Part shown: positions 7,556 through 32,334 of the stretch, in pieces
How positions within the stretch are numbered: the stretch's first letter is position 1
How the letters are laid out: the number at the start of each line of letters is the position of its first letter
Origin: Bacteroidota bacterium
GTDB lineage: Bacteria; Bacteroidota; Rhodothermia; Rhodothermales; JAHQVL01
Length of the DNA: 33,058 nucleotides
Reading direction: 5' to 3'
Assembly (NCBI GenBank): GCA_039111535.1
Contig: JBCCIM010000053.1
Coordinates: forward strand, 1 to 33,058
Notes under the pieces: generated by a model
Told to the model about the DNA's origin: nothing
Seen by the model: only the letters and a program-made list of their open reading frames with translations
Database searches by the model: none
Position numbers and translations under genes: made by a program

Positions 7556-7568
7556 GGGTAGCCGGCGC

Positions 7569-9333: not shown

Positions 9334-9403
9334 CAGTATATGATTAAACAACTACTATAAGTAATTACAGGCTACCCGCCAAAACCGGAACTGTGCCCCC
9401 CGA

Positions 9404-9419: not shown

Positions 9420-9420
9420 C

Positions 9421-9887: not shown

Positions 9888-9923
9888 TCAGATTCGCCAA
9901 CATCTTGCTGATGCTGGCTATTC

Positions 9924-9946
9924 TGCATTCAGGCCTTGCCTGAGCA
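9924..9946 (+). promoter_or_regulatory. Stem-loop immediately upstream of the ribosome-binding site
   Basis: TCAGGC-CTT-GCCTGA (9929-9943) is a perfect 6-bp stem, extended by TGC/GCA (9924-9926 with 9944-9946) across a 2-nt bulge. It ends one base before the AAGGGA, so it could influence ribosome access to the operon's first gene. Confidence 0.4.
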
Positions 9947-9947
9947 T

Positions 9948-9953
9948 AAGGGA
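9948..9953 (+). promoter_or_regulatory. Ribosome-binding site for the outer-membrane protein gene
   Basis: AAGGGA lies seven bases before ATG 9961. It supports that start even though it leaves an unusually long n-region (about 22 aa) ahead of the signal peptide core. Confidence 0.6.
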
Positions 9954-9960
9954 TTCAAGG

Positions 9961-11787
9961 ATGATATTCCGCACTGGTATGCGCAGCCTAATTGATGAAT
10001 TAGTCATTATTAACAGTTTCAGCAAATTGCGTCGCTCTCCGTTTCAATTTCTCTTTATCATTTCCAGCTTCGTTCTCGTGTTCGGATCTGCGTGGCCGTC
10101 CCAGGCCGATGCACAATCCCGACGCCCTTCGACCGTTTGGGGGCCCGTTACGCTGGGCGGTACCGTGGGCTTTTCTACAGAAGCTTACAGCGCTAGCGGT
10201 ATCAATGCGCGCCGGCCCAATGGAAGCGGGCGGCTATTTGGTAAAACGAGCGCGTCTATCAAGGATGTCCGGTACGGACTCGACTTCCTCCTTTCCACGG
10301 AAGACGATCGATTGCGTCAATCGCTCAACCGTGTTGCCGCTTCTGTTGCTTACAACAACTGGGATGCTACAGTGGGCGACTTCAGCCCTCGCTTGAATAA
10401 ATATGGATTAAATGGCGCCACCGTCCGCGGTGCTTCGCTTTCTTATGCGCCCGGTGATCTTTATTTCTCCTTTATGGCCGGCAGGTCTCGCCGCGCTGTT
10501 GACACCGGCGTAGGTGCACTCATCAGGCGCCCGGCGTTTGATCGAAATCTTTTCTCTGCCAGCGTAGGCGTGGGCCCCAAAACAGCAAACCACTTCCACT
10601 TGCAAGGACTCATTGCGCGCGACAAAGAGACTTCGCTTTCCACAGAAACAGCGGCACAGCCGGCTGAAAACGTAAGCTTCACGCCCTCTTTTGGCCTGTT
10701 CTTGCTTGAAAACAGCCTCGAAATCCGTGGCGAACTCACAGGATCTGCCTTCACGCGTGACGTGCGCGCAGCTGAAACAAGTGGTGATCTAACCCCTTCT
10801 TTCTTTGGCCTGTTTACACCGCGCGTTGGAAGCCGGTTTGATTATGCCAGCGATTTCAGCGCACGATACAGCATACAGGATTTCTCAGCGTCGGTCAGCG
10901 AAACGCTGGATCAGCTCACTATCCTCACGTCTTACAGCCGCGTAGCACCCGGATTCACGTCGTTGGGCCGGCCCTACACACGCAGCGATCAGGCAGTCTT
11001 TCGTTTCCAGCCCCAGGCCCGCCTGCTCAACAACAAAATGCAGGTGGCCCTCGACGTTACCAGCCGGCGGAACAACCTCGACAACAACCGCACAGCAACC
11101 CTCAAGCGCAATCAGATCGGCCTCTCAACCCAGGCACAATTGTCTGACGAATTCTTTTTGAATGCCTCCTTTATCCGCCTGGCAAATAACAACAACCCGC
11201 TGAGCAGCGACCCCGTGTTTGCACCACTCGAGCAACGGCTGCTTTCACGTTCCCTGATGTTAGCGCCCGTGTTAACGCGCGCCATCAATGGCCTGACGCA
11301 CAGATTTTCGCTCACCACAACATTCCAGTCGCTTAGCGACAAAACAGAACGCAGCGATAATGCGCCGCGGCCTACCATTGATTTCAATAACACCTCTACC
11401 ACATTGGGGCATCATGTGATTCTGGCGTCCGGACTTGCACTCAACAGCAGTTTGAGCCTCGTGAACAGCAAAGCGCCCTCAACAGATGTGAAAGCAGTAG
11501 GTGTTGTAGCCGGCGGTAGCTATGGCTTTTTCAACAGAAAATTAAATGTGAACCTGACGGGTGGATTGTCTCGCACAACCCTCACGTTCCAGCGCTTGCT
11601 GGAAGCAGAAGCGGCAATGCAAGAAACAGAAAAATCTACCCAGCTCACCTTCTCCCTGACCGGCACGTATCGCGTGACGCTCCGGGATGTGATCCGGCTT
11701 TCCGTGCGAGGTCTGTCAACCAACCAGCCCCTGCGCGGCAACTTTCAGGAAATTCAGTCAACACTCCGATTTGAACATCGGTTTTAA
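9961..11787 (+). CDS. Putative outer-membrane beta-barrel protein
   Basis: A 608-aa exported protein. The Sec signal has its hydrophobic core at about 29-43 and probable cleavage after ADA (residue 51). The mature part is full of alternating polar/hydrophobic strands with aromatic ends (YLVKR-free, e.g. LSYAPGDLYFSFMAG, FSARYSIQDFSASVSE, LNVNLTGGLSR) and lacks Cys. It ends in FEHRF, with a terminal phenylalanine as in outer-membrane barrels inserted by the Bam complex. VGDFSPRLNKYGLNGA (about 138-153) is a distinctive segment. It is first in the four-gene cluster, 33 bp ahead of the giant gene, so it may anchor or export its partners. It is much longer than PorP/SprF barrels (about 300 aa) and I do not assign it to that family. 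The molecular role is unknown. Confidence 0.75.
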   Translation: MIFRTGMRSLIDELVIINSFSKLRRSPFQFLFIISSFVLVFGSAWPSQADAQSRRPSTVWGPVTLGGTVGFSTEAYSASGINARRPNGSGRLFGKTSASIKDVRYGLDFLLSTEDDRLRQSLNRVAASVAYNNWDATVGDFSPRLNKYGLNGATVRGASLSYAPGDLYFSFMAGRSRRAVDTGVGALIRRPAFDRNLFSASVGVGPKTANHFHLQGLIARDKETSLSTETAAQPAENVSFTPSFGLFLLENSLEIRGELTGSAFTRDVRAAETSGDLTPSFFGLFTPRVGSRFDYASDFSARYSIQDFSASVSETLDQLTILTSYSRVAPGFTSLGRPYTRSDQAVFRFQPQARLLNNKMQVALDVTSRRNNLDNNRTATLKRNQIGLSTQAQLSDEFFLNASFIRLANNNNPLSSDPVFAPLEQRLLSRSLMLAPVLTRAINGLTHRFSLTTTFQSLSDKTERSDNAPRPTIDFNNTSTTLGHHVILASGLALNSSLSLVNSKAPSTDVKAVGVVAGGSYGFFNRKLNVNLTGGLSRTTLTFQRLLEAEAAMQETEKSTQLTFSLTGTYRVTLRDVIRLSVRGLSTNQPLRGNFQEIQSTLRFEHRF

Positions 11788-11820
11788 TCCCCCAACAGTT
11801 TACGTACAAGCAGCAGTTGA

Positions 11821-14800
11821 ATGCAGCGATTTTCGCCGACACATAGCACCCGATGCCATAGCCTGTGCACAGCAGTGGTATTTGCCATGCTCGTGCACCT
11901 GGGCCTGATTCTGCCAGAACTTGGTCTGCAGCAAGCCCATGCCCAGGGGACAGCCCAGGTTGTCTTCACCGGTATCCCTCCCGTTTTGTCTTCGCCCTAT
12001 ATCGCAGACCTCGAACGGAGCTACCAGCAAGGCTTGTTTACGACGCAGTTTATCTACGTGAGCCCAAGCCGACAGCCACAAAATTTCCGGTTCCGGCTTA
12101 CGCTGGAAGTAAACGGGGAAACGCGTATCGACATGACGTCGGAAGCCAACGCGTACACGCCCGGCATCCACGTCTACCGCACCTTTGACGATCCGCCGGC
12201 CATTGAATTTCCGCTGCCCTACGAAGAACTGATCCAATTGCTCAACGCAAGTGTTGATCAATCGGGCCTGCTGCCTGAAGGTGACTATGTGCTTAGCATC
12301 GAACCACTTGTTGATGATGAATTGGCCCTCATCCCTTCCGTACCGGGCATGGCTTTCTTCAGTGTACGCTATGCTGAGCCTCCCCTGCTCCTCACGCCAC
12401 TCGATCAAACCGCGTTAAACTCTCAGTTTCCCGTGTTCTCCTGGACCCCTGTTACGGGCGCCCCTTTCACGAGCACATTCGAATATGAATTGTTGATTGT
12501 TGAAGTCTTTCCGGGACAAGCGCCCTACCAGGCACTCGAAAGCAACATCCCACTGGTACAAGAAGGCCTCGTTGGACAAACGGCCTTTGTTTACACGCTT
12601 GCCGAGTTGCCGCTTGAAGAAGGTAAAAACTACGCCTGGCAGGTTCGCGCACGCGACGTAAACGAGCAAATGCCAATTCTCGACCAGGGTGAAACAGAGT
12701 TTTACACGTTCACTGTTGGTCAAGACGGACTTGGATCCATGATCACAGCCTGGAGCTTCCCTGTCAGTGATCCTTTCCTGATTTATGATTTTGAGGATAG
12801 CGCGGACATCGATCCCGCAGACACAGAAATTTTCATAGATGGTGCGCTGCCCATTGAGCTCATGGGACTCGGGAGCGAGGCGCAATTCGACAAACTGCTC
12901 ATTGACGCAGAAACGCAATCTATTATTGAAGGCAGCATCACATTTCGTGAAGCCATTGCCCTTGAAGTGGCTATAAACCCGCTTTCAGACGCACTCACCG
13001 GATATCGCGCGGTGCCATCTGGTGAAGCCCTTGAACTCCCTGATGGCCTGCTCCTCGAGCTTGGCGCAGATGTATTCATTGACCGCAACGGATTGCACCC
13101 GAGAGGCACCCAAAAGGCAATTGTCTCCTATACGGGTCTGCCAAAAACAGAGTGGACGGCTACATATTCTGGTGACTTCACCCTCAACTTCGCGCCATTC
13201 CAAATCTCCCGGGGCCGTGTAGATTTTGCTGCTGGCGGCGTTGCCCAAGCATACGCAGACGAGACTGGGTTTCACTTGATCGACCAGAGCGACCCCGTCA
13301 TCGCCCAAATCCCGGACCGACTACAATTGCCGGATGAGCAGGTTGCTTTTATTGATCTCAAACGGGCAGGACAATCGCTGGTTGACATAGAACCGGCCGC
13401 TGGCGGGCAATTCAGTGTCACCGGCAAACCCGGTGTACCACTCCATCTTGCCTTGCCAGGCCTCGACCGGATTACACCTGATGCAGCGCATCACTTCACT
13501 GCCTCACTGGAAGATGTAGTTATCGACGCCCAGACCGGACAACTGGTGAGTGGGCAGATTACAGCAACACCTGATGAAACTGCAGCCTACATCACGCTTG
13601 ATGCCCTTGGGTTGCCCATCGCACCAACAGCATTCAAAACACGGCATACCGACACAGGAGTCAAAATCGATATTGAAGGACAGCTTACCCTTTTTGGGCA
13701 ACCCCTTCGAAATGCTGAGCCCATACAGTTTACGATGGATGAAGCCGGCGTAGTCACCGGTGCCATCGATCTTGCCGAAGCAGATGCCTACATTTTCCTG
13801 GATGGCGAAGCCGGCAACGTTAGCATGGATATCACTGACGCCCAGGGCATGTTACGCGTACCGCTCAATGCCTTTGCGCCAGCTCAGGGCGGTTTCGACG
13901 TTACCGGTACCTTCAACCTGAACAAAGGGGATAACGTTGTTGCTGCAGCAGCCCTCAACTTCTACTACACTGGGGAAGGACGGGTAGCCATTGATTCGTT
14001 TGCGCCAATTGAAAATGAAAGCAACTCCCGCTCCATATCGCTAAATGGCGCCGGCCTGCAAGTAGATAAAATTGAGGCGCTCGATCTTTACTACACCCAT
14101 GGACAGCCCGTCCGGTATGTTGCAGATTTACAGGCCAGTTTAATGCCTTTTAACGGCACGTCCAGGCTTGCACTTCCGCTTACGGGTGTTGAACTGCACC
14201 AGCACAAATTCTATATCCCTGCACAAGAAGCCCATCCGGGTACACCTGGGTTCACCTATTTTGCTCGCAAGGCAGGCCCAGCTACCCTCAGCCTGCTTGC
14301 CTATCGCATTCCAACGACCCTGGTTGCGAGAAAAAGCGAAAATGGATCGGCCACCGTCACGCCTTATTACGATTTTGAAGTAAACCTGCGGGATGCTGCT
14401 GGCTTCCCAGATGGCTTTGCTGATTTGCCACTTACACTGCAGGATGCGCAGATTGTAGACGGACTGGTTAGCGGCAACATCTTGCCTTACACACCGGCGA
14501 AAGGCAGCCTTACGCTTCCAATGGAAGCCGGTGTATTTAACGCACACGCTATTTCCGGTGCTTTTGCCGTAACGGATGACGCACAGGCGTTCGTCGTTTC
14601 CGCGCACGGCACGCTCGACCTCTCCGGAGCCATTACGGGAAGCACACAGCCGTGCGCTGTGCCAGACCTGACCCTCACAATTAATGCAGCAGGCGAAATT
14701 TCTGGCAACGCCACACCTTTTGCCCCATGTACTACATTTTCGCTTGGCCCTGTTGCAGCCGGTTTTGAAGAAGCCGAACTGGCAATCACCACGGATGAGA

Positions 14801-17800
14801 CAGGCCGGCGTTACCTCCTTTCAGGCGAGGTAACATCAATTAGCCGCAGAGGATCACGTCAAACAGCTGCCGCAACAGGACCGCTGGTACTCGACTTGCT
14901 AACTGGCGATGTGCAAGAAGCTGACGTGCAAATTGAACGCCTGCTCTGGGAATTCCCGGTAACAGCCCCACGCTACCAGATCAGCGTTGAAGAAACGCAT
15001 TTGACGGCAGAAGGCTTTGCCCTTGCAAACGATAGTACGGTTGCAATCACCGACATTAATACAGCAGACGCCTTTTTCCTCCGGCCGCAGGGCGACTTCC
15101 GGCTGGGCCTGCACCCTGGAAAGGCTAACAAAGGCAGTGCTGCACTTATGCCGCGCAATAATCCATCTGGCGTAAGGATTGCAACACTCGATGCAGACGG
15201 ATTTCATCTCCAGACAGCCGACAATCTGCTGCCTGAACGCATCGAGTTACCCGGCGCATTTGGCGCCTACCTCGACCTCGTACAGGCAGGCGAGGATGAC
15301 ATTGCGCTTGGAAAATCGGCAAACAAAGGCAACCGGACCCTGGAAACAGCTGATGAAGCCACTGTAAATCTTGTGATTCCGCAACTGGGCACCAGCCTTG
15401 CTATCCCTGTTGCCTTTGCCATCGAATTGACAGAAGGGCTCGCCTACGCCGGCGGCACCATCGAACACGACCTTGCCAATCGCCCTGTCAAGCTATTCAC
15501 TGGCGATTCCCCCCTGCTCATTACCGGAGTTCGCTACGACGACGAATCCAAACAACTTTCCCTGACGGGCCAACTGAAGGTCCCTGCATCTTTTACAGGA
15601 GATGAAGACGATCCGGACTTAGAAGTTGAAACCACACTGGCATTGTTCGCCAATGGCCTTGCTTCTGTTGATATGGAAGCGGCTACTTACGCCCTACACA
15701 GCGGCACCCTATCCCTGTCGCCACACTCAGCACATGTCATGCGTGCTTCGGGTGCATTACGGTTGACACTAAACGGCGCAATTGATAGTCCGGTACTGAA
15801 CCATGCCAACGTTGATTCTGCCCCACTTGGGTTTGAAGCAACTTATGCCTCTACGGCTACTGCATGGGCGCTTGCCGCTGTTGCGCCGGCAACGCAAAAA
15901 ATTGCCATTGACCAGGCCACATTGTTGCTTGATCCTTCAACTCCGCCTGTGCTGAGCGCCGCCCCCATGCCCGTTCTCGAACTGACCGGCGCGCTCGTCA
16001 TGCCCGCAACCATAAGCCAGGATTTTGTTTCAGAAGTTGCAATGGAAATTGGGCCGGGCGGCGTCTATGTCACCCAACTTGGCGAGTTTGATGCGCCCCA
16101 ATCTTTTTTCAACGGATTCCTGACAGCTTACCTCGAAGCTGCTGACATCTTTTACGACGCCGCTGAGCAAACGCTGGTCACTACCATTGATGGTGCTTTT
16201 GCGCCGGCATTGAGCCTGAATAACAATTCAGAAACGCACCATACCTTTGGCACGCCGACAGACCTGTTGCCATTTTCTGGCATTGAACTGTCGACAAACG
16301 GCGCAATAACGCTGCGCGATTCCAGCTTCGGGCGCAATACAACCAGCAGTACCGAAGAACTCAGGTTACTGGCGGATCTCCCACGCATCCCTGTAATTTC
16401 TCAGCATTTCTGGATTGAAGAACTGATCCTGAAAGCCGTGGACGGAGAACTAATGCTTGGCGTCGAAGGCACGGTGCGCTTGCCTACGCCTGATGGCCGG
16501 CGGGTGTTACTCGGCAACCAGACCATCGATGAAACCACGGCCAGCCTCTACTCAGACCGCATGCCGGTTGCCCTGACCTTAAACAGCAAGGGCCAGTCCC
16601 TCACCATGAAAGGCACCGCCAGCCAGCCTGTTTTGATGGCGAACAACCTGGAAACAGATGAAAACGCAACACAACGCGGGTTCAACATCAACGGTGCATA
16701 TCTGCATTTCAACCCGCAGTTCGCCGCAGATAACAGAATACACAGCGCGGCGTCGTTGCAGGTCCCAACAGGTGCCGTTAGCACAGATTCTACCGGGGAA
16801 GCGTTGCACGCTGCGATCAACTTTGGCGATGGCGTAAGCACGCGCCGGCACCCGGGTATCATCATTGCCCAGGCAAAGCAACAGCAATACCTTGTGGCAG
16901 AACAGCCGGCAGCCAATCGCCCGGCCTTTACACTATCGGAAGAACTATTTGATACGGAAATCCAGACCCTGGCACTGCCAAATCCGGAAGTGCCGACGGT
17001 TACGCTGGGCGGCCTGAGCCGGCTCAAAGTACCTGGGCTTGCCGGCGTTTTTCCGGTTGACAACATTACCCTCGCCCCTGAAGGCATACAGTCGCTCGGC
17101 CAGTCTGCAGGTCCCGCAGGCATTACGTTTGGGCAATCGGGGCTCTTTGAAGTAGGCTGCGTAAACCTTGGCATTAACGGTCGTGCAAGCAATGAACCCG
17201 GGTTTTCGGGTGCTGGCGCTACAACTTCCAGCACTGTCTCGCGCATCCAGTTTGGCGCTGTCTGTGGAGACAGCCTGTCGATGACCTTGACGGATAAATA
17301 CCTGCATGGCACCTACAGTAACCTGATCATCAGGAAAAATGGTGCAGCGCCGGCAGCTCAGTTCACCAGTACAACAATTAATTTGAATCAACTGGGGGCG
17401 GTAACGGGCAACCTGACAACGACGCGTGACACCACAGTAGCTGCCCTTGCCCTGGAGGGTACAACTACCTTCCGCGGCATCCGGTTAGGTACCACCGGTA
17501 CCCTCAGAGAAATTGACGGCAAAAGTAGCCTTGGCATGTTGTTTAATCCATCGACGAGTACCCTCGATCTGCTCGATGGCGCCGCTACTGCATCGCTTGC
17601 CGGCGGTGGCCTCTTTTTGAATCCAACAGCAAGTGACCTGGCGCTGGTCGACCTGGCGCTCAACGAACGTAGCAACAACGGATTTTCATCCAACAAACCA
17701 GCCGGCTTCTCTCATACTGGCCTCCACGCCATTTTACCTGTTGAGTTACAACTCGCAAACGGCGAAATCCCGGTATTAAGTGGCACCGGACTCATGGAAG

Positions 17801-20800
17801 CAGGTACGCAGTTCACCACACTGGATCTTGACGGCGCGCTCCTCGAACAGGAGGATGCACTGAACGCCGGGATGTTCTTGGTAGAGCAATCATCCACGGA
17901 AGACACGCAACAACTACTCGGACTGGCTGATGTAAGCCTCAACTATGTATCCCTGGCCGGCGGCATTCTCAAAGCTAACGTAACAGCAGCATCGCACGAA
18001 AGCGGCCTCTCATGGTCTGTTGCTGGCCGTGCAACTGTAGATCTCGTTGACACCATCAACTTACCTGGCCAATTTCTCATTGGGCAAGATGGCTTGCTGC
18101 TCGATTTGCATACAGCCCCAAATCTCAAAGCCGGGCCTTTGTCCCTCGAAAGAGATATCAACCTGTCGGTCTGGTCGAGCCCGAGTCGCAGCACGTTGCA
18201 AGGATATGCAGCATTTGATGCAGCACTTGATCTCATTCCAGGGTTTACCGTTGCGCCCGTAAAGCTCTATGGTAGCTTCATCGAAGACAATGATGAAAGC
18301 CTCTTCTATGCAGCCAGAAATATATTCGCCGATGTGCCCTTTGTCTACTCGGGTCCCATCGACCCCTGGCTCTCTTTGCAGGAAGGAGAGGTATATGGCG
18401 GCGATGCACGCAATACAACGTTCCGCCGCATGATTACGGACGCGCGACAGTTTGGCAACGCTGTACCGGTGCATGCAACGAACGCCATCAATGCACTACG
18501 TAACGCGTTGCAGGTACAGCAAACGCTCGCCTTTAACCCCGTTCGTTCGGGCAACCTTCCCTATTTTGCGCAGGGTGCTGCAGCCCTCAAAGAAACCGGA
18601 GAAGCCTGGGCCACGCTTGAATCCGATGCTGTAGCGGCTGATGCGTTGCCCGAGGTGTTGGAAACACTCCGTGAAGGCCTATACAACGATACAAGCCGTC
18701 CTGCCTACGCCCCCAACCAGGACCTGCCGGCGCCTGACACTAAAACCCAGGATGCACTCAACCGGATGACTGCGAGTGTTGCAGCCGCCAAGCGTTCTGC
18801 AGACTCAGACATATTTGCCCTGAATGGCCTCCTTCCCCGTCCCCTGCTCTGGAATTCAGATTATGTTGAACTCGCGTCGGCATTGACCACGCTTCCTGTC
18901 ACCTCTGTCACCTGGCCCGGCAACGCAGAAAACCCGCAGGCCGGCTTCTCGATAGATGCTGCCCTGCAAGCTGCACAGCAGGCAAGCCTGCAGGAATTCA
19001 AGCAGAAAAATGAAGGCCTCGATGTACAATTCCTCCGCACAGTTGGCGGGGTTGAATTAAACATGGTCAACCTGAAAATTGCGCGCTCACCGCAGCAGGC
19101 AATCGACTTTACCAAAGCCACAAGCGCCATTTCAGAATATTACGCGCAGCATATTGACAGTGATTGGGAATTACTCAACTGGACACAGGAAAAAGCAACC
19201 TGGCTGGCAACCCAGGAAGACGCCGTGGATCGTGGCATTCGTGAAAACTTGCGGACGTTTAACGACAAAGAAAACAGCGAAGACGCACTGCGCGACATCA
19301 CCCGACAGCGACACAACCAGGTGCGCCAACTGGCCCGTAATACGGCGTGGGCACGCGAAGATCTTCCAGAAGATCAGCGCTTTGCCCAATACCTCTCCGG
19401 GCTTGATGCAGATGGGCTGAAAGCTGAATTTCAGACAACAGCAAAAGATCTCTGGTACGATGTACCGATGGCTGCCCTCACGGCACTCAGTGACACCCTC
19501 TCGTCGCTCCTTGATGCCCGCAATGAACAATTTGCTACGGGCATGGACACTTTGGGCAAAGCCTACGGTGCGTTCTCGCTTGCACTGGATCCGCTCTATG
19601 ATATCCAAACGCGCTTTACAACAACGCTGTACGGCATGGCCGAGGAATACCGGACATGGCGTGGTACCATCCGCCGGCTCGATCCCGAAGCAGTAAACTA
19701 TGCGTTCCAGTTTGTCCCCTACCGCGGCAACTACCGGATTCTTGCAGATGATTTGATTCCTCCGGTCATCGAAGACATCAGTATTACCCCAACAAGCGAA
19801 GGCTTCCTCAATAATACAATGCTTACGTGGTCTGCAACGCATCCGGTAGACCTGGTAGAGACCAGCCTTGCCCTCTCTTACGAGGCAGATGCTGCGCCAC
19901 AATTTGCAAGTGTATCCGATGCGCCTGGCTTTTCCTTTTTCACGGCCAAGCCCGACAGAGAGACCACGGAGCGTGATGTAAATGTTACGCTTCGCGTGCG
20001 TGGCGCCGGCGGTGTCCCGGCAGTCAAAAAAGGCCAGTTCACCGTAACCGTTGACCCTGCTTCTGATGTTGTGATGGCAGAAGCAGATTCACCCTTGATT
20101 CCATCAGACCAGACGCCGCCACCAAGGCCTCGCATTGCAAATCTTGGATATTCCTCCTATTTCAGCGACACCCCAAATACCCTGCAATTTGACCTGGCTC
20201 CTATGGCAGATGATGAGTCAGGCATCGAGCAGATTACCTATCGGATTGTCAACGACCGCAATGAAGAAGAAATCCTTCAGGACTGGACTGAACTTCAGAA
20301 AAGTACCGACTACTTCGCCGGCCGGCTTGTAGAAACCAGCCTGCCCGTGCAGGAAAAAGAATTGGCAGTACGGGTTGAGGTGCAAGTCAGGAACGAAGCC
20401 GGCCTTACGTCAGATGCCAGCGCTTCAATTTCTCTGGCACTTGACGACTCCAAGCCTTTTGCCGCTATCGAAAACATCTCCTACTTCAACGAATTTGACC
20501 TGAAGCATCCACGTGCAATTGCCCTTTCCCTCGGTGAAGTCGCTGATGAAGAATCAGGTATCGATTTGATTGAGTATGCGCTGCTTGAAGGTGCGCGCGC
20601 TACGCTGGCAGACGCAATCTGGCAGCCGCTCCAGTCTTTTCCGAATCGAGACACCCGCGCCGGCTATGAGACCTATTTCATCAACCTTAACGATGATACC
20701 CTGCCAGAAAGCAGGACACGGTTTGCGCTGAACTTGCGCATTACGAACGGCGCCGGGCTACAAACCATCGTCAACGAAGTACTCGACATTCCGGGCCGCG

Positions 20801-23800: not shown

Positions 23801-23886
23801 TTGAAGTGCGGGTCACCAACGGGGCCGGCCTGCAAACAACCGTCAGCAAAACCGTCTTAGCAAGATCCCCCGATTCTGATCAATGA
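11821..23886 (+). CDS. Giant secreted multidomain protein (4021 aa) with TANFOR-like N-terminus and 11 Ig-like repeats
   Basis: Sec signal peptide cleaved probably after AHA (residue 41). Layout by residue: about 45-180, a domain resembling the N-terminus of Bacteroidota TANFOR-type giants (PPVLSSPYIADL, LPEGDYVLSI; tentative); about 184-300, an FN3-like domain (FPVFSWTP, NYAWQVRARD); about 303-2195, a long beta-rich region of irregular repeats; about 2195-2640, a helical, Gln/Ala-rich region; about 2763-4021, eleven tandem Ig-like repeats of 110-118 aa. Only four mature cysteines were found, in two close pairs (945/970 and 1780/1815), which could form disulfides. No T9SS C-terminal domain, LPXTG or membrane anchor is present: it ends RSPDSDQ. 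It lies between the barrel gene and an FN3 gene whose ATG overlaps its stop, so a cell-surface complex is inferred. Adhesion, gliding or scaffolding are guesses. Confidence 0.85.
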   Translation: MQRFSPTHSTRCHSLCTAVVFAMLVHLGLILPELGLQQAHAQGTAQVVFTGIPPVLSSPYIADLERSYQQGLFTTQFIYVSPSRQPQNFRFRLTLEVNGETRIDMTSEANAYTPGIHVYRTFDDPPAIEFPLPYEELIQLLNASVDQSGLLPEGDYVLSIEPLVDDELALIPSVPGMAFFSVRYAEPPLLLTPLDQTALNSQFPVFSWTPVTGAPFTSTFEYELLIVEVFPGQAPYQALESNIPLVQEGLVGQTAFVYTLAELPLEEGKNYAWQVRARDVNEQMPILDQGETEFYTFTVGQDGLGSMITAWSFPVSDPFLIYDFEDSADIDPADTEIFIDGALPIELMGLGSEAQFDKLLIDAETQSIIEGSITFREAIALEVAINPLSDALTGYRAVPSGEALELPDGLLLELGADVFIDRNGLHPRGTQKAIVSYTGLPKTEWTATYSGDFTLNFAPFQISRGRVDFAAGGVAQAYADETGFHLIDQSDPVIAQIPDRLQLPDEQVAFIDLKRAGQSLVDIEPAAGGQFSVTGKPGVPLHLALPGLDRITPDAAHHFTASLEDVVIDAQTGQLVSGQITATPDETAAYITLDALGLPIAPTAFKTRHTDTGVKIDIEGQLTLFGQPLRNAEPIQFTMDEAGVVTGAIDLAEADAYIFLDGEAGNVSMDITDAQGMLRVPLNAFAPAQGGFDVTGTFNLNKGDNVVAAAALNFYYTGEGRVAIDSFAPIENESNSRSISLNGAGLQVDKIEALDLYYTHGQPVRYVADLQASLMPFNGTSRLALPLTGVELHQHKFYIPAQEAHPGTPGFTYFARKAGPATLSLLAYRIPTTLVARKSENGSATVTPYYDFEVNLRDAAGFPDGFADLPLTLQDAQIVDGLVSGNILPYTPAKGSLTLPMEAGVFNAHAISGAFAVTDDAQAFVVSAHGTLDLSGAITGSTQPCAVPDLTLTINAAGEISGNATPFAPCTTFSLGPVAAGFEEAELAITTDETGRRYLLSGEVTSISRRGSRQTAAATGPLVLDLLTGDVQEADVQIERLLWEFPVTAPRYQISVEETHLTAEGFALANDSTVAITDINTADAFFLRPQGDFRLGLHPGKANKGSAALMPRNNPSGVRIATLDADGFHLQTADNLLPERIELPGAFGAYLDLVQAGEDDIALGKSANKGNRTLETADEATVNLVIPQLGTSLAIPVAFAIELTEGLAYAGGTIEHDLANRPVKLFTGDSPLLITGVRYDDESKQLSLTGQLKVPASFTGDEDDPDLEVETTLALFANGLASVDMEAATYALHSGTLSLSPHSAHVMRASGALRLTLNGAIDSPVLNHANVDSAPLGFEATYASTATAWALAAVAPATQKIAIDQATLLLDPSTPPVLSAAPMPVLELTGALVMPATISQDFVSEVAMEIGPGGVYVTQLGEFDAPQSFFNGFLTAYLEAADIFYDAAEQTLVTTIDGAFAPALSLNNNSETHHTFGTPTDLLPFSGIELSTNGAITLRDSSFGRNTTSSTEELRLLADLPRIPVISQHFWIEELILKAVDGELMLGVEGTVRLPTPDGRRVLLGNQTIDETTASLYSDRMPVALTLNSKGQSLTMKGTASQPVLMANNLETDENATQRGFNINGAYLHFNPQFAADNRIHSAASLQVPTGAVSTDSTGEALHAAINFGDGVSTRRHPGIIIAQAKQQQYLVAEQPAANRPAFTLSEELFDTEIQTLALPNPEVPTVTLGGLSRLKVPGLAGVFPVDNITLAPEGIQSLGQSAGPAGITFGQSGLFEVGCVNLGINGRASNEPGFSGAGATTSSTVSRIQFGAVCGDSLSMTLTDKYLHGTYSNLIIRKNGAAPAAQFTSTTINLNQLGAVTGNLTTTRDTTVAALALEGTTTFRGIRLGTTGTLREIDGKSSLGMLFNPSTSTLDLLDGAATASLAGGGLFLNPTASDLALVDLALNERSNNGFSSNKPAGFSHTGLHAILPVELQLANGEIPVLSGTGLMEAGTQFTTLDLDGALLEQEDALNAGMFLVEQSSTEDTQQLLGLADVSLNYVSLAGGILKANVTAASHESGLSWSVAGRATVDLVDTINLPGQFLIGQDGLLLDLHTAPNLKAGPLSLERDINLSVWSSPSRSTLQGYAAFDAALDLIPGFTVAPVKLYGSFIEDNDESLFYAARNIFADVPFVYSGPIDPWLSLQEGEVYGGDARNTTFRRMITDARQFGNAVPVHATNAINALRNALQVQQTLAFNPVRSGNLPYFAQGAAALKETGEAWATLESDAVAADALPEVLETLREGLYNDTSRPAYAPNQDLPAPDTKTQDALNRMTASVAAAKRSADSDIFALNGLLPRPLLWNSDYVELASALTTLPVTSVTWPGNAENPQAGFSIDAALQAAQQASLQEFKQKNEGLDVQFLRTVGGVELNMVNLKIARSPQQAIDFTKATSAISEYYAQHIDSDWELLNWTQEKATWLATQEDAVDRGIRENLRTFNDKENSEDALRDITRQRHNQVRQLARNTAWAREDLPEDQRFAQYLSGLDADGLKAEFQTTAKDLWYDVPMAALTALSDTLSSLLDARNEQFATGMDTLGKAYGAFSLALDPLYDIQTRFTTTLYGMAEEYRTWRGTIRRLDPEAVNYAFQFVPYRGNYRILADDLIPPVIEDISITPTSEGFLNNTMLTWSATHPVDLVETSLALSYEADAAPQFASVSDAPGFSFFTAKPDRETTERDVNVTLRVRGAGGVPAVKKGQFTVTVDPASDVVMAEADSPLIPSDQTPPPRPRIANLGYSSYFSDTPNTLQFDLAPMADDESGIEQITYRIVNDRNEEEILQDWTELQKSTDYFAGRLVETSLPVQEKELAVRVEVQVRNEAGLTSDASASISLALDDSKPFAAIENISYFNEFDLKHPRAIALSLGEVADEESGIDLIEYALLEGARATLADAIWQPLQSFPNRDTRAGYETYFINLNDDTLPESRTRFALNLRITNGAGLQTIVNEVLDIPGRDVTPPSEPLVSIAHSGFYNTVAQNQLRIIVSGSQDFESGISAVRYRIIDGKTGHEISPWDDFLFLDPNSPTFILPASEKHIALPAFESSRTIIVETQTTNAAGLTSNKGVRFLQLEQDNTAPTSPTLEVASTQQAASGNILLTVGASQDPESYISQVNYRVVDMANQQALQSWRPLLQLVQPFPTFPGLTTSIDASEVPVGIKAGIQVQLINQQGLQTIAASPLDRSEDLTPPLAPSLLLEATAASSEEEIPLKVYLGESRDLESGIASARYRVRDLSTGSNTAWTDIALNGMSFTMPGGTLNTTLPGLAATQAYALEVEIRNAAGLATRVSGIIDRDTETVFLDGAPAQPHVALFHFDEDNTIRQDELELTVFPSIDAHTLLDSLQYKITVFDSQQNEMGSRDRGTWRTVPYRTSKPDIPFTTYLPFRMQDDMATVQVAVRLLNAQGSSPIAQAQRQLKLDSDTSAPAIQPLAYSYSGYHKADSPNALTLNLRDITDADSRIAQVSYRVVNDQNTSDVVVDWTDVSRINKAGIFAPDNVSIVLPEFSRNRKLRIETRALNGAGIASTADTTLDVIVDRTAPVIADPELAFTGITSAHGDPGLVVYLGAITDEESRITSVAYRVYANDDQEATVVDWTSPELVTSNHIRLPAISAPLSAQQLGDTFTLEVEAKNEAGLATTLEREVNANLDNSAPQMPKVEVSYRESDLGTDYLLIEPGAFRDAESKIAALAYRLVDSNNPETVFIDWIQIPVPNDIRVSVAAIAIPRAEIPYDGAAVLAAEFRATNGAGLSSTRRSTVELPGDVSPPDSPSLIVAHRNAYDPLHPNTVEIQIGSSEDTQSAIAQAQYRIIDTATGDELTTWTQLPITSEGYFPGTIVFKELPLIEQSASYKIEVEILNTAGLVNSITEDVRVDIQNDATPPASVISLHYFENALALVLDELADPESKIRKVEYRFLDNVDQSELQPWTDLFEIVTPQGVYPKQSFNINQPAVRSGRTLKIEVRVTNGAGLQTTVSKTVLARSPDSDQ
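20107..23883 (+). repeat. Eleven tandem Ig-like repeats of the giant protein
   Basis: Repeats start near bases 20107, 20445, 20800, 21151, 21484, 21832, 22189, 22531, 22870, 23209 and 23550. Each opens with D-x-(T/S)-x-P-P or a variant. In the middle is D-x-E-S-(G/K/R)-I-x-x-(V/A)-x-Y-R, then a conserved Trp (W-T-x-(L/V)), then V-E-V-x-x-x-N-x-A-G-L before the next repeat. Repeat 6 has lost the ESGI motif (it reads DAHTLLDSLQYK) and repeat 10 reads DTQSAI. DNA identity between copies is low, so these are old duplications. The fold is inferred to be beta-sandwich. Confidence 0.85.
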
Positions 23887-25973
23887 TATATCAGCTCCCA
23901 TATCGTTTAATCTTACCCTGTCGGCTACTGTTTGCCGTAGTGGTTAGCTGTATGTTTTTGGCCGGCACAAGCCTGCAGCAAGCAGTGGCGCAACCGGTAC
24001 AACCGGAAATCAGGATTGCCGTCCAGGAAGACAATCCAATCGTCTTTGTTTACCATACAGCGATGATTCCCATTGGGCACGGCTTCAACATCTACAGAAA
24101 AGATGGCGCCAACGAGGAATACGAGCAGTTAAACACTTACCCCATCCGGGGCGTGGCGTCAGGCACAGAACTCCGCGCATTCCTGGGGACGCTGTACGAC
24201 GACATCGAACAAACAACAGGACAGTCGACAGACAACGGTACGCTGACCAAACTGCGAAGCGACTTCAAGACGGCGAACCTGCTAACCTTCATCTACCCTG
24301 AGATAGCCGCCTCACTAGGCCGCATCTATGAAGATCAGACAGCAACGCTGGATGCGCCGGCTACCTATAAAATTGAGTTTGTAGATGCACTCGACGCCCC
24401 AACGGGCGATGTGCTCGAACAAACCGCACTCCTGCTTCCTCAGAAGCCCGATGCCCCAACACAGCTTCGGGCTGAAAACCAGGGCAATCTGATCACCCTG
24501 TACTGGCGCTACATTCCCCCGAACGAGAACGCTGACGACAAGGTTATTCGGTTTGATGTTTACCGGGTAGACCCCATGACAAACCAGCACCAGCAACTAA
24601 ACAAAAAGGTTGTACTACGCAACAACGCGTTGTTTGAATACGCGCTTACGTTCGAGGTACCAACTGTTGGACAGACAGAGCAGCTATATGTCCGCTCGGT
24701 AGACATTACCGGCCAGGAAAGCGACCAGAGTGTGATCTTGCGGTACGATGCCATTGACCTGGATCCACCAAATGAGGTACTCGAAGCGGACGCACGGCCG
24801 TTATCAGGCCAGCGGGTGCAGGTATCCTGGCGCAGCGGAAATACGAACGCGGCTGGCAATGACATTGCCGGCTTCAACGTGTACCGCTCCACAGCATTAC
24901 ACGACGAAGCGGCTTATACAAAGCTGAATGCCGCACCGCTTGGGGCCAACACAACCCTGTTCAACGATACCCTTTCCGTATCTACAGGCGGCGATGTGTA
25001 TTTCTATCGCGTGACAGCAATCGACGCGAGTGGCAACGAAGGTGCCCGCAGCACGGCAGCCATGGCACTCGTCGCAGACCAGACTCCGCCACCTGCGATT
25101 GGCACATTGCGCGCTGAGGCAAATGAAGACGGCACCGTATCGCTAGACTGGCGTGCACCGCGGTCCGCAACAGATTTTGAAACGTTTATTGTATTGCGGC
25201 AACGCCTGGGACAACACGCACCCGCTTTGCCGATGCGTATAAATCCGGCTACACTCACCACAACTTCACTGGTGGATAGAGGAGAAGCCGGACGCGGATT
25301 CTATGAAGGGGCCACGTATAAATACACGGTTCACAGCGCTGACGCTTCGGGTAATTTCAGCGCGCCTGTTACCACTACATTGCGCATACCGGACGAAACC
25401 GCGCCGGTAGCACCCAATGGCGTTCAGGCTGTGGTAGAAAATAACGCACGCATTGCGGTGTTCTGGAATCCCTCCCCTGCCCGGGATGTCATGTCGTATG
25501 TCGTTTACCGCAGGGAAGCCGGTTCAAGCAAGCTCATTGCAACACCTGTACCTGCGCATACGCGCCGGCTGGAAGACCAGCAGGTTGAGCGTGGCACCAC
25601 GTATGCCTACTGGGTAACCGCAGCAGATTCAGCAGGCAATGAAAGTTTGCAATCTGATCCTTTTGAAATTCAAATGCGCGACTATGCCGCCCCACGGAGT
25701 GTGCGCAATGTAAAGCTCTCAGCAGACGATGGCACTGTTTCCATTGCCTGGGAGCCTGTATCAGCTTTTGACATGGCCGGCTACGAAGTGCTGCGCGCAT
25801 CACGCCTTACGGGCACTTATGCGGCCATTACCTCCCATCTCCTCACAGACAACAGCTGGCAAGACGAAGCATCGTCTACCAATCGTTGTTATCGCGTCCT
25901 GGCCATAGACACCTCTGGCAACAGAAGCCGCCCAAGCCAGCCTGTCTGTATCCGCCCTACTGCAAGCCAATAA
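23883..25973 (+). CDS. Secreted fibronectin type III repeat protein
   Basis: A 696-aa protein with a Sec signal (cleavage probably after AVA, residue 36). The N-terminal domain (about 40-185) contains [10 protein letters not shown]. Five FN3 domains follow, starting near 189, 293, 399, 504 and 600. They show the usual marks: P-P at the domain edge, W in strand B (YWR, SWRS, DWRAP, FWNPS, AWEP), F-x-V-Y-R in strand C and Y-x-V-x-A-x-D-x-x-G-N in strand F. Two cysteines (669 and 689) in the last domain could form a disulfide. It ends IRPTASQ, without a T9SS sorting domain. Its ATG overlaps the stop of the giant gene (ATGA), a strong sign of translational coupling, and the next gene starts 7 bp later. 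It is probably an accessory surface subunit working with its neighbours. Confidence 0.88.
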
Positions 25974-25980
25974 TCCAGGG

Positions 25981-28900
25981 ATGACTTTACTAGCCAACAT
26001 ATTAACCCGATACCGCGTCAGTTTGACGATGCTGTGTGTTGCCTTTTTAGTGGCAGCACACCCGGTAGATGCTAAAGCAGGCAGCGCTATCGAGCGCAAT
26101 GCCCTCGCTGAAGCCCGCATCGATCCGCCCGTTTCCAACGGCATCGATGATATCACCGTACTAGAAGATGCAGCCGCACAGGTGATCAACCTGTTCGATG
26201 TATTTGATGACGACGTTGATGCGGATGAAGACCTCGTCTTCTCGATAGAAGGCAACACGAACCCTACCCTGCTGAGCACCTCGATTGATGACGCAAGTGG
26301 CTTGCTGACCGTAACGATTACGGGTGATGTGTCGGGAACTGGGCTCATCACAGTTCGCGCTACTGACACGGGCCTAGAGTCAACCGATGTGCCGTTTAAC
26401 GTAACGGTTACGGCTGTAAACGATGCACCTTCTTTCAGTCTGGGTACGCCGCCAACAATCAACGAAGACGCCGGCGCGCAGACGGTAACCAATCTCGCAA
26501 CGGCCATCAGCCCAGGCCCCGCTGACGAAGCCGGCCAGGTTGTCACCTTTGCAGTCACCAACAATACCAACGCTGCCCTGTTTTCCGTGCAGCCGAGCGT
26601 ATCCAGTACAGGCACCCTAACTTACACGCCCGCAGCCAATGTTTCTGGCTCGGCCACCATCACCTTGCAGCTGAGTGATGATGGCGGTACGGCAAATGGC
26701 GGGGTAAATACCAGCCCAACCCAGACGTTTACCATCACCGTAAATGACGTCAATGACGCGCCGTCATTTACCAAAGGCGCCAACATCAATGTAGGGGAAG
26801 ACTCAGGCGCGTTTAGTCAGACCAACTGGGCCACAAACATCAGCGCAGGACCAAATGAAGAAGGCCAGATTCTGACCTTCAACCTCTCTCCTACCAATAC
26901 CAACCTGTTTGCCGTCCAGCCCGTCATTACAGCAGCGGGCACGCTTTCTTTCACGACGGCAACCAACGCTTCTGGAACGTCCACGGTCACTGTTTCCTTG
27001 TCGGACAACGGCGGTACAGCCAATGGTGGAGACGACGAGAGTCCGTCACAAACCTTTACCATTACTATCGACGGGCAGAACGATCCGCCGACAACGTCGG
27101 GCATCAGCGACCAGAACGAACTGGAAGACGCGAACAACCGGGTAATCAACCTCTTTTCTGCATTTGATGATGAAGAAGATGCAGACGCAGCGCTAACGTA
27201 CCAGGAACTGAGCAACTCGAACGCGGCCCTTTTCACGAGTACAACTGTTAACCAGGCAGCCGGCACGTACACGCTGGATTTTGCGCCGGATGCAAACGGC
27301 TCAGCCAACATCACTATCCGCGTAACAGATACACAGGGGTTGTTTGTTGATGAATCATTTACGGTGAACGTAACCGCTGTAAACGACGAGCCCTCCTTTA
27401 CCAAAGGCGCTGACCGCGTAGTTTCAGAAGACGCAGCCTTCCAGACTGACATCGGCTGGGCAACCAATATTTCCGCCGGCCCACTCAATGAGGCCACGCA
27501 AACACTGACCTTTGACGTATCCAACAATAATGCTGCGCTTTTCCAATCTGCCCCAAGCATTTCCAGCACGGGTACACTGACCTACCACCCTGCTCCTGGG
27601 GTCAGCGGCGTGGCAACGGTTACCGTCTCCCTGATGGATAACGGCGGTACAGCCAACGGCGGCGATAACGAAAGTCCGTCACAAACCTTTACCATCACCA
27701 TCAGCGGTGAAAACGACCAGCCTACAACATCAGGCATTGCCAATTTGCAGGTTGTAGAAGACGCTGTAAACACAACAATTGGCCTCTTCCCCTCGTTTGC
27801 AGATGAAGAGGACGCAGATACACAGCTAACTTACAGCGTCGTTGGCAATACCAACCCAGCCCTTTTTGGTACCATCCCGGCCATTGGTTCATCCGATGGT
27901 ATTCTAAATCTGCCGCTGGCGCAAGACGCGAGTGGCGTTGCTACGCTAACGGTACGCGCCACGGATAGCGGCGGCCTGTTTGTAGATGCGGCTTTTCAGG
28001 TCGAAGTGCTCTCGGTCAACGACGCACCTTCGTTTACCTCCGGTGGCAATGTGTCTGTACCGGAAGATTCGCCGGCATACAGCGCGCCATGGGCAACCAA
28101 TATCTCAGTTGGGCCGGCCAACGAGTCTATCCAGAGCGGTACGTTTAACCTTGTTGTAGATGACCCAACGCTGTTTGATGTAGTGCCTGTAGTTGGTCCA
28201 ACGGGTGTGCTCGACTTTACGCCCAAACCCAACACGTCGGGCGCAACAAGTGTGACCATCAGCCTGCAGGATAACGGCGGCACCGCAAACGGTGGCATTG
28301 ATACAAGCCCGGAAATCACATTTCAAATCAACATAGAAGGCGAAAATGACGCACCGGTGGCCGTTGATGATGCCTACACCGTCCTTGAAGGCGCATCCCT
28401 AACAGCATCACCCGGCGGCACACCACCCGGTGTACTCGACAACGACCTCGACGACGACGGAGACGTGTTAACGGCTTCGGTCATCCTCGAACCCAAACAT
28501 AGCAGCAGTTACTCCCTCCTGCCAAACGGTACACTGTTCTACGTACACGACGGCTCGGAGAATGTATCGGATTCACTCACCTATGTCGCGTTTGATGGCA
28601 CAACAAACTCCAACATTGCTACCATCTACCTGAACATCAAAGAAAGTAACGACCCGCCGGTGGCGAACAACATCAGCGACATTGTGGATATAGAAGATGG
28701 CGCGCTCCGGCTTGTAAACCTCTACGCCGCATTTGATGACCCAGATGATGCAGATGACGCCCTGACGTACACCGTTGAGAACATCAGCAACCCGGCGCTT
28801 TTTGCAGACCTGACCGTCAATACGGAAACCGGACAACTGGAAATCACTTATGCCCCCGATGCCAACGGGGCATCGAGCATTACAGTTCAGGCAACAGATC

Positions 28901-31900
28901 CGGGCGGCTTGACGGATCAGGCTTCATTCAATGTAACCCTGACACCGGTAAACGACGCGCCGTCTATGACGCCAGGTCCGGACATTACGCTGGATGAAGA
29001 TCCAGGCCCACAGTCTATTACCAACTGGGCAACGAACCTCGTAGCAGGCCCGCCAGATGAATCCACGCAAGTGGTTACGCCGAGCTTCTTCGTATCCAAT
29101 CCTGGCCTCTTCAGCGTCCAGCCGGCGCTTTCGATTAACGGCATCAATGGTACGCTTACGTTTACCCCTGCCGCACAGACTGACGGGCAATCCAGCGTTA
29201 CACTGACCCTGTCTGACAACGCCGGCGGCAACAACAGCGCCAGCTACGACTTCCTGATTACGATCCAGGGTGACAACGACAAGCCAACTTCTGTGACCAT
29301 CGAAGACATCACCGTTAACGAAGACGCCGAGACCGTCACGTTCAACCTGTTTGATATTTTTGATGATGTAGAAGATGCGGACAACGAACTGACCTATTCT
29401 TTGGAAGGGAATTTCAACAACGGCCTGTTTGAAGACCTTTCGATTGAGGGCACACCCAAGATCCTCACCATCAACTACGCAGCCAATGCATTTGGCGAAA
29501 CCACAGTAGGCATCCGGGCAACGGACACCGAGGGATTGTTTGCGCAGGAAGACGTGAAAATCACGATCAACCCCGTGAATGATGCGCCGGCTTTTGATGC
29601 AGGTCCCAACGTAACCATCGGCCAGAATTCGCCAGCATACGAAGCGCAGTGGGCCGAAAACATCAGCGCCGGCCCCGCCAACGAAAGTGGACAGGAGCTG
29701 TTTTTTGCCGTAACCATTACCAACGGCACAGAAGGCCTCTTTGCAGAACTGCCGGCCATCAGCGAAGATGGGGTGCTTACATTCACACCTGCGATCGGCG
29801 ACAACGTATTTGGCGATGCAGAATTGTCTGTTATCCTGGGCGACAACGGGGGTACCGACAATGGGGGTGTATCGCAGAGCATCGCAGAAACCTTCACCAT
29901 AAGCATCCGCCGGCTCAACACCGCACCCTCCGGCGTAGCGGATAACTACATTGTAGACCAGGGGCAATTGCTTTCTGTGGGCGCGGCCAACGGCGTTCTG
30001 GCAAACGACAGCGACCCGGAAAACGACAACCTTACAGTGCGGCTCATCACAGGACCGGCGAATGCATCATCCTTCACGCTTAATGGCGACGGTTCGTTTT
30101 CCTATCGCCACAACAACACACCCTCAACCAATGACGCGTTTACCTATGTAGCCAACGACGGCTTTGACGACTCAAACGAAACTACAGTAACGATATCGAT
30201 CCAACCGTCTGGTACCCTCTCGCTGGCCGCCCTTGAAGTACTGGAAGACGCAGATCCTTCGGTGATCAATGTGCGCTCAGCCCTTTCTCTGGCAGATGGG
30301 TACGAGTATATCATATCCAATGTATCCAACCCTGCCCTGTTTGCAGAAACGGCTATAGACACATTGGCCGGCATCCTCACGGTAACGTACGCGGCCAATG
30401 CCAACGGCGAGGCCAATATCAACATCACGGCTACAGCAGTTGAAGAAGGAGGCGACCCAATTGTAGCAACGCAGAAAATCACGATTCTGTCGGTAAACGA
30501 TGCGCCCATTGCAGTGGACGATATCACGGCAACAATCCAGAACCGCGCCGTGGAAATCGATGTGATTTCGAATGACGTAGACTTTGACAATGACAACCTG
30601 ACCATTTTCAGGATTACCAATCCGAATGCCGGCACCGTACAGGCGCTGCCCAACGGCAACCTGTTCTATCGCCCGGCAACCGACTTTACGGGGATTGCGA
30701 ATTTCAACTACTCGATCCGCGACGACAGCTCTGCTGCTGCAGAAGGCCTCGTAACCGTGACCGTTTTCTCTGGCCGGTTTGTGGTGGATGATCTTGGGTT
30801 TGCCACGGCGTCAGTCAGTGCTGCCTATAACATCAGCAACGCCGGTGAAGTCGTAGGCGCCTCACTGGGTACAGGCGGTGGCATCCAGGCCTTCTCTTCA
30901 ACGCAGGACTTACCCCTGGCTGTAAGCGAAGCCCTCGACGCAAACGATTTTGGTCAAATTGTAGGTGCCTCCACGTTTGACACCGGCCTGAATACGGGTC
31001 CGGTTTTCCAGGCCACATTGTGGGATACCTCCGGCGTGAACAACCTGGGCTCCCTCGATGGCCGGATCAGCAAGGCGTACAGCATCAACAATGCCGCGCA
31101 AATTGTGGGTATCTCGAGCAAGCCGGGTTCCGATCTATTCCGGGCCGTACAGTGGGACGGGATGGAAATTGCCGAACTGGAAGCCGGTGCAGAAGAGGAA
31201 AGCCAGGCATTCGACATCAATGAAGCCGGCGTAGTTGCAGGCTATGCCGGCGCTACGGCAGCCATCTGGCGCGACACCGAAATTGAAACCCGCCTGCTGG
31301 GTACGGCCGGCCGCGCCTACGCAATCAACGCCAGCGGCGAGACCGTGGGCAGCGTCGACGACGGCGCTATCAGAGCAGTTTTCTGGGATGATGACGGTTC
31401 TGCAGTGTCGCTCCAAATTGACGGCAGCACCTTTAGCGAGGCATACGGCATCAACAACTCAACCTGGGTGGTGGGTGCGTACTTGCCGGCCGGCACTGGT
31501 AAAACAGGCGCTGCACCAATTCGCAAAGCTGATGCGCTGCGTAGCAATGACGAAGCAGCCAAAACCAAAGGCAGCAATACCCTGCACGAAACGCAACAGG
31601 TCAACAACAACCTCCGCGCCTTCTTATGGCAGGGCGATACCGTGCTCGACCTTAACGATTTCATCGACGCCGCTTCTGGCTGGGTGTTGCTCGAAGCGCG
31701 CGCAATCAACAACGCTGCGCAGATTACGGGTATCGGTCTGTTCAACGGCGAGCGGCAAGCGTTCCTGCTCTCCCCCACGCTCAACAAAACCCCAACAGCC
31801 GCGATGGACCGCGTTGGCCTCATCCAGATCCAGCCGCTGGTGATTGATGTATTGGCAAACGACCACGACCTGGACGGCGACAGCCTCCGCGTGATGTCGG

Positions 31901-32334
31901 CTGAAGACGGAGATTATGGCCGCGTGGTGCTGAAAAAAGATAACACGCTCACGTACCATCCGGGGAAGTACTTCCCGGGTACAGACACCTTCACCTACAT
32001 CATCACCGACGACAACGGCGGTATGGCTGAAGGCCGGGTAGAAATCTACATGGATGAAAACGCCGCGCCTGAAGAACTGTCGCTCGACCAAAACTACCCA
32101 AACCCCTTCAACCCGCAGACCACCATTACCTACGGCCTCCCCGAACCCGGCCGCGTGAGCCTGGAAGTGTTTAACCTGATCGGCCAACGCGTTGCCGTAC
32201 TGGTAGACGGCATGTTGCAAGCCGGCAAACACCACGTGGTGTTTGACGCACAGGGGCTGCCGGGCGGCGTGTATGTGTACCGGTTAAAGACGAATGAGAC
32301 GAGCCTTAGCCGGCGGCTGATTTTGGTAAAATAG
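25981..32334 (+). CDS. Cadherin/Ig-like repeat and HAF-repeat protein with T9SS type A sorting domain
   Basis: A 2117-aa secreted protein. Signal peptide cleaved probably after VDA (residue 31). Residues 49-1598 hold fifteen Ig/cadherin-like modules of about 100-110 aa. Type A has '[17 protein letters not shown]'. Type B has 'APSFTKG..V.ED', 'WATNISAGP' and 'DNGGTANGG'. Type C is VCBS/Big_9-like with 'NDxDxDxD' calcium-type acidic motifs. Residues about 1599-1933 are HAF-family extracellular repeats. One more type C module (1937-2032) and a T9SS type A C-terminal sorting domain (about 2033-2117) follow. It is the only protein of the cluster with a T9SS signal, so it is expected to be exported and attached at the cell surface, stabilised by calcium. 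It starts 7 bp after the FN3 gene. The ligand or function is unknown. Confidence 0.93.
26125..30774 (+). repeat. Fifteen tandem Ig/cadherin-like modules of three types
   Basis: Module starts (bases), using the A/B/C types defined in the gene entry: A 26125, B 26428, B 26758, A 27085, B 27388, A 27718, B 28024, C 28351, A 28654, B 28957, A 29281, B 29584, C 29926, A 30208, C 30502. The order ABBABAB-C-ABAB-C-A-C shows an A+B pair of about 210 codons as the main duplication unit. A 23-bp identical stretch at 27040-27062 and 27673-27695, in neighbouring B modules, shows relatively recent duplication or conversion. Confidence 0.85.
30775..31780 (+). repeat. HAF-family extracellular repeats
   Basis: About six to seven copies of a roughly 40-60 aa unit with A-(Y/F)-x-I-N-x-x-G-x-(V/I)-V-G followed by A-x-x-W: for example [54 protein letters not shown] and [14 protein letters not shown], the last ending in [15 protein letters not shown]. 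This is the pattern of the 'probable extracellular repeat, HAF family'. A hydrophilic insert (residues about 1839-1878) interrupts one unit. Confidence 0.85.
32077..32331 (+). other. T9SS type A C-terminal sorting domain
   Basis: The last about 85 residues carry [19 protein letters not shown], then [35 protein letters not shown] and a basic end, RRLILVK. This is the FlgD-like sorting domain recognised by the type IX secretion machinery in Bacteroidota and Rhodothermota. It predicts export across the outer membrane and processing at the surface. Confidence 0.95.

Follow-up and report, generated by a model that had tools for sequence, protein, structure and literature searches.

The window, a stretch of 33,058 nucleotides from a member of the Rhodothermia (Bacteroidota), carries a trio of genes that appears to be an undescribed means of holding giant proteins at the cell surface and perhaps of exporting them. 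The trio encodes a predicted 26-stranded outer-membrane barrel, a 4021-aa giant with a TANFOR-like N-terminal domain (N-domain), and an Fn3 protein. In the reading that we prefer, with a probability of roughly 0.55, the giant is a barrel-dependent surface protein whose N-domain would dock on the barrel. We found no description of such a barrel-giant-Fn3 trio in the main texts of the open-access literature.

Together with a fourth gene, the trio forms a set of four open reading frames on the plus strand (608, 4021, 696, and 2117 aa) separated by gaps of 33, -4, and 7 bp, exactly where an earlier, sequence-only reading of this DNA had placed them. That reading had also assigned Sec signals to all four products, and each of them indeed has a strongly hydrophobic N-terminal segment and no further TM-like segment. 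The features are as follows.

9961..11787, plus strand: predicted outer-membrane barrel, 608 aa (AF2 model and homologues)
11821..23886, plus strand: putative giant surface protein of 4021 aa, Sec signal present (its orthologue in G001, a sister genus, measures 4026 aa)
11950..12783, plus strand: N-domain of the giant, aa 44-321, whose first half is TANFOR-like and whose second half is Ig/Fn3-like; proposed to dock on the barrel (hhalign to TANFOR alignment)
12751..20220, plus strand: middle of the giant, aa 311-2800, kept across families
20221..23883, plus strand: C-terminal Ig-like array of the giant, motif D-x-E-S-G-I, aligning poorly between families
23883..25973, plus strand: Fn3 partner of 696 aa, in which the signal and a conserved N-terminal region (about aa 40-219) precede the Fn3 domains
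25981..32334, plus strand: cadherin/Big_9 repeat protein of 2117 aa that also has HAF repeats and a T9SS CTD of type A
30772..31770, plus strand: HAF-repeat region, aa 1598-1930, the part common to T9SS proteins adjoining the cassettes of other families
32095..32325, plus strand: T9SS type A C-terminal sorting domain

The start of the Fn3 gene overlaps the stop of the giant's gene by 4 bp, and the Fn3 assignment made from the letters is borne out by a match to PF00041 (1.3e-11). In the sister genus, all four genes recur in unchanged order (608/592, 4021/4026, 696/683, and 2117/2211 aa). With this conservation in another genus of the family, at identities of 37-55%, the arrangement is not due to chance. 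Promoter and terminator scans inside the operon gave nothing clearly above shuffled sequence, and the window contains no Rfam families or tRNAs.

The barrel has no significant Pfam domain. That it is a barrel had been a guess from the letters, which is now backed by an AF2 model of 26 long antiparallel strands (pLDDT 81, pTM 0.70, from a 9-sequence alignment; the AF2 alignments comprised 7-9 rows of window sequences and related loci). Strand 1 of 26 starts the model directly, and the model has neither a POTRA domain nor a plug. The h-region of the signal peptide spans residues 31-41; as the hydrophobic stretch lies only there, the true start may be downstream of position 9961. The best whole-length structural match in the PDB is MtrB (6r2q_B, Z 20.8, 463 residues aligned, rmsd 5.5), and porins form a plateau below it at Z 16-18. 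AlgE, LptD, and MtrB are among the structural matches, and Foldseek also listed FimD/PapC ushers, SprA, and LptD. None of these structural matches (MtrB, ushers, SprA, LptD) was matched in sequence, and PDB searches returned no sequence relatives for the barrel, the N-domain, or the middle of the giant. The modelled size and fold allow a wide pore, which is not proof of protein export.

Several assignments of the barrel were rejected. A PorP/SprF anchor is at odds with the 26 rather than 14 strands of the AF2 model and with the lack of PorP_SprF Pfam matches in 11 members of the barrel family. TpsB/Omp85 was dismissed on the lack of Omp85 or POTRA matches in the family and on the POTRA-free model, and MtrB/PioB (PF11854, with the haem partner MtrA) on a match in fold only, with no match in sequence and 0 CXXCH motifs. 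The missing CXXCH likewise led us to discard multihaem electron transfer. Homologues of the barrel occur in 92 of the 245 class genomes (E<=1e-8), a count that takes in distant relatives of ~900 aa. A conserved operon found in several classes encodes an N-domain-like protein of ~380 aa, a FecR protein, a barrel of the same wider family (~800-917 aa), and a CHASE2-adenylate/guanylate cyclase (L181, 6289-12926, and L187, 5497-12409, the two loci checked against Pfam; also L180 and L182-L186), which suggests that the wider barrel family has a part in a signalling system as well.

The giant has no Pfam match at E<=1. The first 1,020 aa of its middle are predicted to be all-beta without a confident known fold (pLDDT 68, pTM 0.45); the PDB matches of the middle (teneurin, LptD, OspA, usher) are all weak, with Z<6, and we claim no fold. 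Between families, residues 1-2800 can be aligned, in contrast to the last 1,200. Compared with the giants of other families, that of the window lacks a block of ~600 aa near the N-terminus and has a longer Ig tail. Among 25 complete giants from class cassettes, 16 measure 3,900-4,150 aa, and length stays near 4,000 aa across families despite swapped internal blocks. At about 4,000 to 6,381 aa, the giants are some of the largest proteins met in this analysis. The 6,381-aa example is a TANFOR-type giant with the Fn3 partner directly after it, and the stretch that was read contains no barrel (L178 and L179, G019:C39:350001-376156, positions 4313-23458); similar ORFs of ~6,400 aa occur in G029 and G005.

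The N-terminal ~280 residues of the giant are TANFOR-like. TANFOR is described as the "trafficking" domain of Bacteroidetes polymorphic toxins, whose export route is unknown and whose dependence on the T9SS is hypothesised only (Jana, Salomon, Bosis 2020, PMC7073777). The TANFOR model TIGR02542 does not match the window directly, and its direct search in 198 genomes of the phylum gave nothing at E<=0.001; matches came only in genomes picked by the N-domain family's own profile (best 2.8e-13). Outside the class, the N-domain profile and TIGR02542 match the same ORFs. In hhalign, the window-type N-half and a TANFOR alignment of six sequences (five clear TIGR02542 matches and one weaker, E 0.001) share 110 collinear columns (Prob 90.2, P 1.5e-6). 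The system is widely distributed: of 394 genomes from across the phylum, 116 match the N-domain profile, and 69 of 170 sampled genera contain a relative of the domain.

In the class, the three genes occur together at 21 cassettes, 20 of which have the order barrel-giant-Fn3, with the Fn3 gene first in the remaining one (G197); nearly every locus examined that has a long enough contig and a close relative of the barrel shows the former order. The exceptions are two orphan barrels from one genus (G019:C50, G005:C3) and a mini-locus in the window's own genome (G000:C98). In other classes the trio was found at 15 of 18 loci examined, ordered barrel-TANFOR-Fn3 or TANFOR-Fn3-barrel. The gene order varies and the membership of the trio is constant. 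Named genomes with the system include those of Roseithermus sacchariphilus and Rhodohalobacter halophilus. Outside the class, the barrel was detected in 35 of 36 genomes positive for the N-domain or TANFOR. Of 53 barrel matches on contigs that bear an N-domain, 51 share its strand and are no more than 20 kb away, with 0 at that distance on the other strand; the selection of these genomes by the N-domain conditions the presence of the barrel and not the linkage. The sequence-only reading had proposed a single surface structure, which separate occurrence of the genes in relatives would speak against. Apart from the few orphan barrels, genes 1-3 stay together, but gene 4 does not stay with them. 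Phylum-wide recurrent synteny thus upholds one functional unit, but not the proposed role of the T9SS protein as its anchor or exporter, as most cassettes have no adjacent T9SS protein.

The part of the giant that accompanies the barrel can be narrowed down further. At minimal loci the neighbour of the barrel is a protein consisting of the N-domain only (332 aa at C98 in the window's own genome, 406 aa in G197), so that it is the N-domain and not the body of the giant that travels with the barrel. In three genomes of two families, N-domain and barrel even form one uninterrupted ORF of 863, 947, and 1016 aa (L192, 8302-10893; L193, 10635-13478; L194, 4356-7406, respectively), and in the fused barrels the first strands are followed by a helical, coiled-coil-like insert. 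Distances between barrels and those between N-domains correlate with r=0.87 over 50 loci (permutation maximum 0.26), much of which species phylogeny alone gives. The true pairing ranked first, by a small margin, among 16 within-genome paralogue swaps. It is the genomic linkage, on the same strand, and the fusions that point to a dedicated barrel partner of the giant's N-domain, in agreement with the earlier proposal that the barrel serves the giant. For TANFOR proteins in general, no partner barrel is mentioned in the consulted sections of PMC7073777, nor did we find one elsewhere in the open-access literature. The T9SS has only been hypothesised as their route across the outer membrane; the conserved partner barrel, the N-domain-only loci, and the natural fusions offer a concrete, testable binding pair. 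The own-genome mini-locus (L195, G000:C98, 1304-10924) is paralogous and also encodes a 1506-aa protein without Pfam match, a 639-aa barrel, and a 688-aa protein with T9SS CTD besides its 332-aa N-domain protein.

A mechanism along these lines would begin with export of the giant by Sec. Its TANFOR-like/Ig N-domain would then dock on the periplasmic side of the dedicated 26-stranded barrel or inside its lumen, and the barrel would anchor the giant and probably give its long beta-rich rod and its C-terminal Ig array a way to the outside. The Fn3 protein would be an obligate accessory, acting in assembly or as a surface adaptor, and the HAF/cadherin protein, exported separately by the genome's T9SS, would join as an optional fourth component and may serve to decorate the structure. 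The data show the gene content, the linkage across the phylum, the natural fusions of N-domain and barrel, the barrel fold as a prediction, and the lack of a recognisable T9SS CTD on the giant. From these we infer that the giant docks physically, lies at the surface, passes through the barrel, and functions in adhesion or as a fibre. A tentative extension, which we rate well below docking itself, is that the barrel represents a new Bacteroidota pathway of outer-membrane export and anchoring, in which it would recognise TANFOR-type N-domains and pass giants, in some lineages toxins, independently of T9SS and Omp85. If true, this pathway would be a non-homologous counterpart of two-partner secretion.

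In TpsB/TpsA and CDI systems, a barrel gene lies beside that of a giant exoprotein, and the two products pair through a conserved domain at the N-terminus of the exoprotein; the gene layout is alike here, as is the proposed pairing. TpsB, however, is a 16-strand Omp85 barrel with POTRA domains, and the barrel here gave no match to either. Intimin/invasin and the inverse autotransporters are single chains with a small barrel, an extracellular Ig array, and a distal C-terminus. A barrel-anchored extracellular Ig array with a distal C-terminus is also what we propose here, but the barrel is a separate and much larger protein. MtrB/PioB (PDB 6r2q) resembles the predicted barrel in fold and strand number (26), but not in sequence, and no multihaem partner is encoded here. 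Within the phylum, giant-plus-barrel anchoring exists in SprB/SprF (PMC9143113). In the SprB-SprF and PG1035-PorP pairs, a giant surface protein is likewise encoded beside its dedicated anchoring barrel (PMC9143113); there, the protein has a type B CTD and the barrel is a 14-stranded PorP-like member of the FadL family, which probably binds the C-terminal signal. Here, in contrast, the barrel has 26 predicted strands, the giant has no CTD, and it is the N-terminal domain that travels with the barrel.

The main rival takes up what Jana et al. suggested for TANFOR proteins: the T9SS translocon SprA would export the giant, and the barrel would be only an anchor or shuttle, a functional analogue of SprF/PorP. 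SprA is encoded in 241 of the 245 class genomes. This near universality leaves room for T9SS-dependent export, and it also made presence or absence of the T9SS fail as a discriminator. Moreover, PMC7073777 reports T9SS in more than 95% of TANFOR genomes and enrichment of T9SS substrates and of Fn3, SprB, and Por_Secre_tail domains near TANFOR genes; SprF holds the giant SprB at the surface (PMC9143113), and HAF-CTD proteins recur beside the cassettes. However, no type A or B CTD was found on the window's giant (Por_Secre_tail, TIGR04183, and CHU_C/TIGR04131; Pfam at E<=1, NCBIfam on the last 1361 aa at E<=10), and the barrel was not detected as PorP/SprF and is modelled with 26 rather than 14 strands. 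We regard SprA-dependent export as unlikely, though as the strongest competitor of barrel docking. Further points against docking are the two orphan barrels, which exist without a nearby giant, and the related barrel that sits with FecR and a CHASE2 cyclase, so that the wider family is not only for giants. As to export, LptD and MtrB are 26-strand barrels of the same size, and neither exports protein.

Alternatively, the giant might be a periplasmic beta-rich conduit and the barrel a porin or a channel for lipid or polysaccharide, in an LptD- or MtrB-like path across the envelope. The size and fold of the barrel, with LptD, MtrB, and AlgE among its matches, and the modelling of the giant's middle as a continuous beta meander would suit this arrangement, which we nevertheless consider improbable: CXXCH motifs, and hence MtrB-like electron transfer, are lacking, no transport genes were seen in the cassettes, and the Ig-array tail and the TANFOR toxin relatives fit an extracellular place.

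Still less credence is due to a TANFOR polymorphic-toxin locus, in which the giant would be the delivery stalk of an antibacterial tip. Such toxins share with the window large Sec-exported proteins, a related N-terminal domain, and Fn3 and T9SS-CTD proteins nearby, the Fn3 neighbours being enriched near TANFOR genes (PMC7073777). They differ from the recurrent trio with its dedicated 26-strand barrel and Fn3 partner, where no toxin or immunity gene was found. A polymorphic toxin is recognised by a C-terminal toxin, or by a toxin and an immunity gene downstream, but searches of Pfam and NCBIfam revealed no such toxin on the window's giant, nor did ten further giants from the class or ten TANFOR-type proteins from other classes (the latter mostly trio-associated) show one at their C-termini, and the downstream gene encodes a large secreted Fn3 protein rather than an immunity protein.

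Finally, export or anchoring of the giant and the Fn3 protein by the T9SS HAF/cadherin protein, as the sequence-only reading had it, is hardly credible: the gene is adjacent and co-directional in the window and in the sister genus and has homologues at 7 class cassettes, but it is absent beside most cassettes, often replaced after the Fn3 gene by one for a TPR protein, its position varies, and the genome encodes at least 150 T9SS CTDs.

The domain assignments of this fourth protein fared better. Cadherin (Cadherin_4/5) and T9SS sorting domains (Por_Secre_tail 2.1e-7, TIGR04183 6.7e-9) were recovered, as was Big_9 (7.5e-95). The HAF repeats stay below the Pfam threshold (0.009), but homologues back their assignment. 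As a type A substrate of the T9SS, the protein has a Sec signal and a TIGR04183 score of 35.6 bits (cut-off 23), and its genome encodes SprA (G000:C183). Its last 612 residues (Big_9, HAF repeats, Big_9-like, T9SS CTD) are collinear with a T9SS protein (31%, 5e-72) whose gene directly precedes that of the barrel in another family. With at least 150 T9SS CTDs in the genome, a T9SS neighbour alone is a weak sign. HAF-CTD homologues, however, adjoin 7 of about 30 class cassettes, four upstream of the barrel and three downstream, and the protein is a genuine recurrent member of the system, although optional and positionally mobile. It can therefore not be a general exporter or anchor. At other cassettes, the gene that follows Fn3, if readable, often encodes a large TPR protein. 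HAF-CTD and TPR proteins look like alternative fourth members, and no HAF-CTD cassette read has a TPR gene after Fn3.

Directly upstream of the barrel gene, a gap of 627 bp separates it from the gene of a small protein (8857-9333; 158 aa, TPR-like by eye, without signal peptide), which is kept upstream of the barrel in the family's three genomes. Farther upstream follows an unrelated block on the minus strand that includes haem genes. Short tandem repeats at 6232-6358 (TTTCGGGT x4 and CCTCACTCCAAACT x3.6) overlap, or lie just outside, the end of a minus-strand pseudouridine synthase gene.
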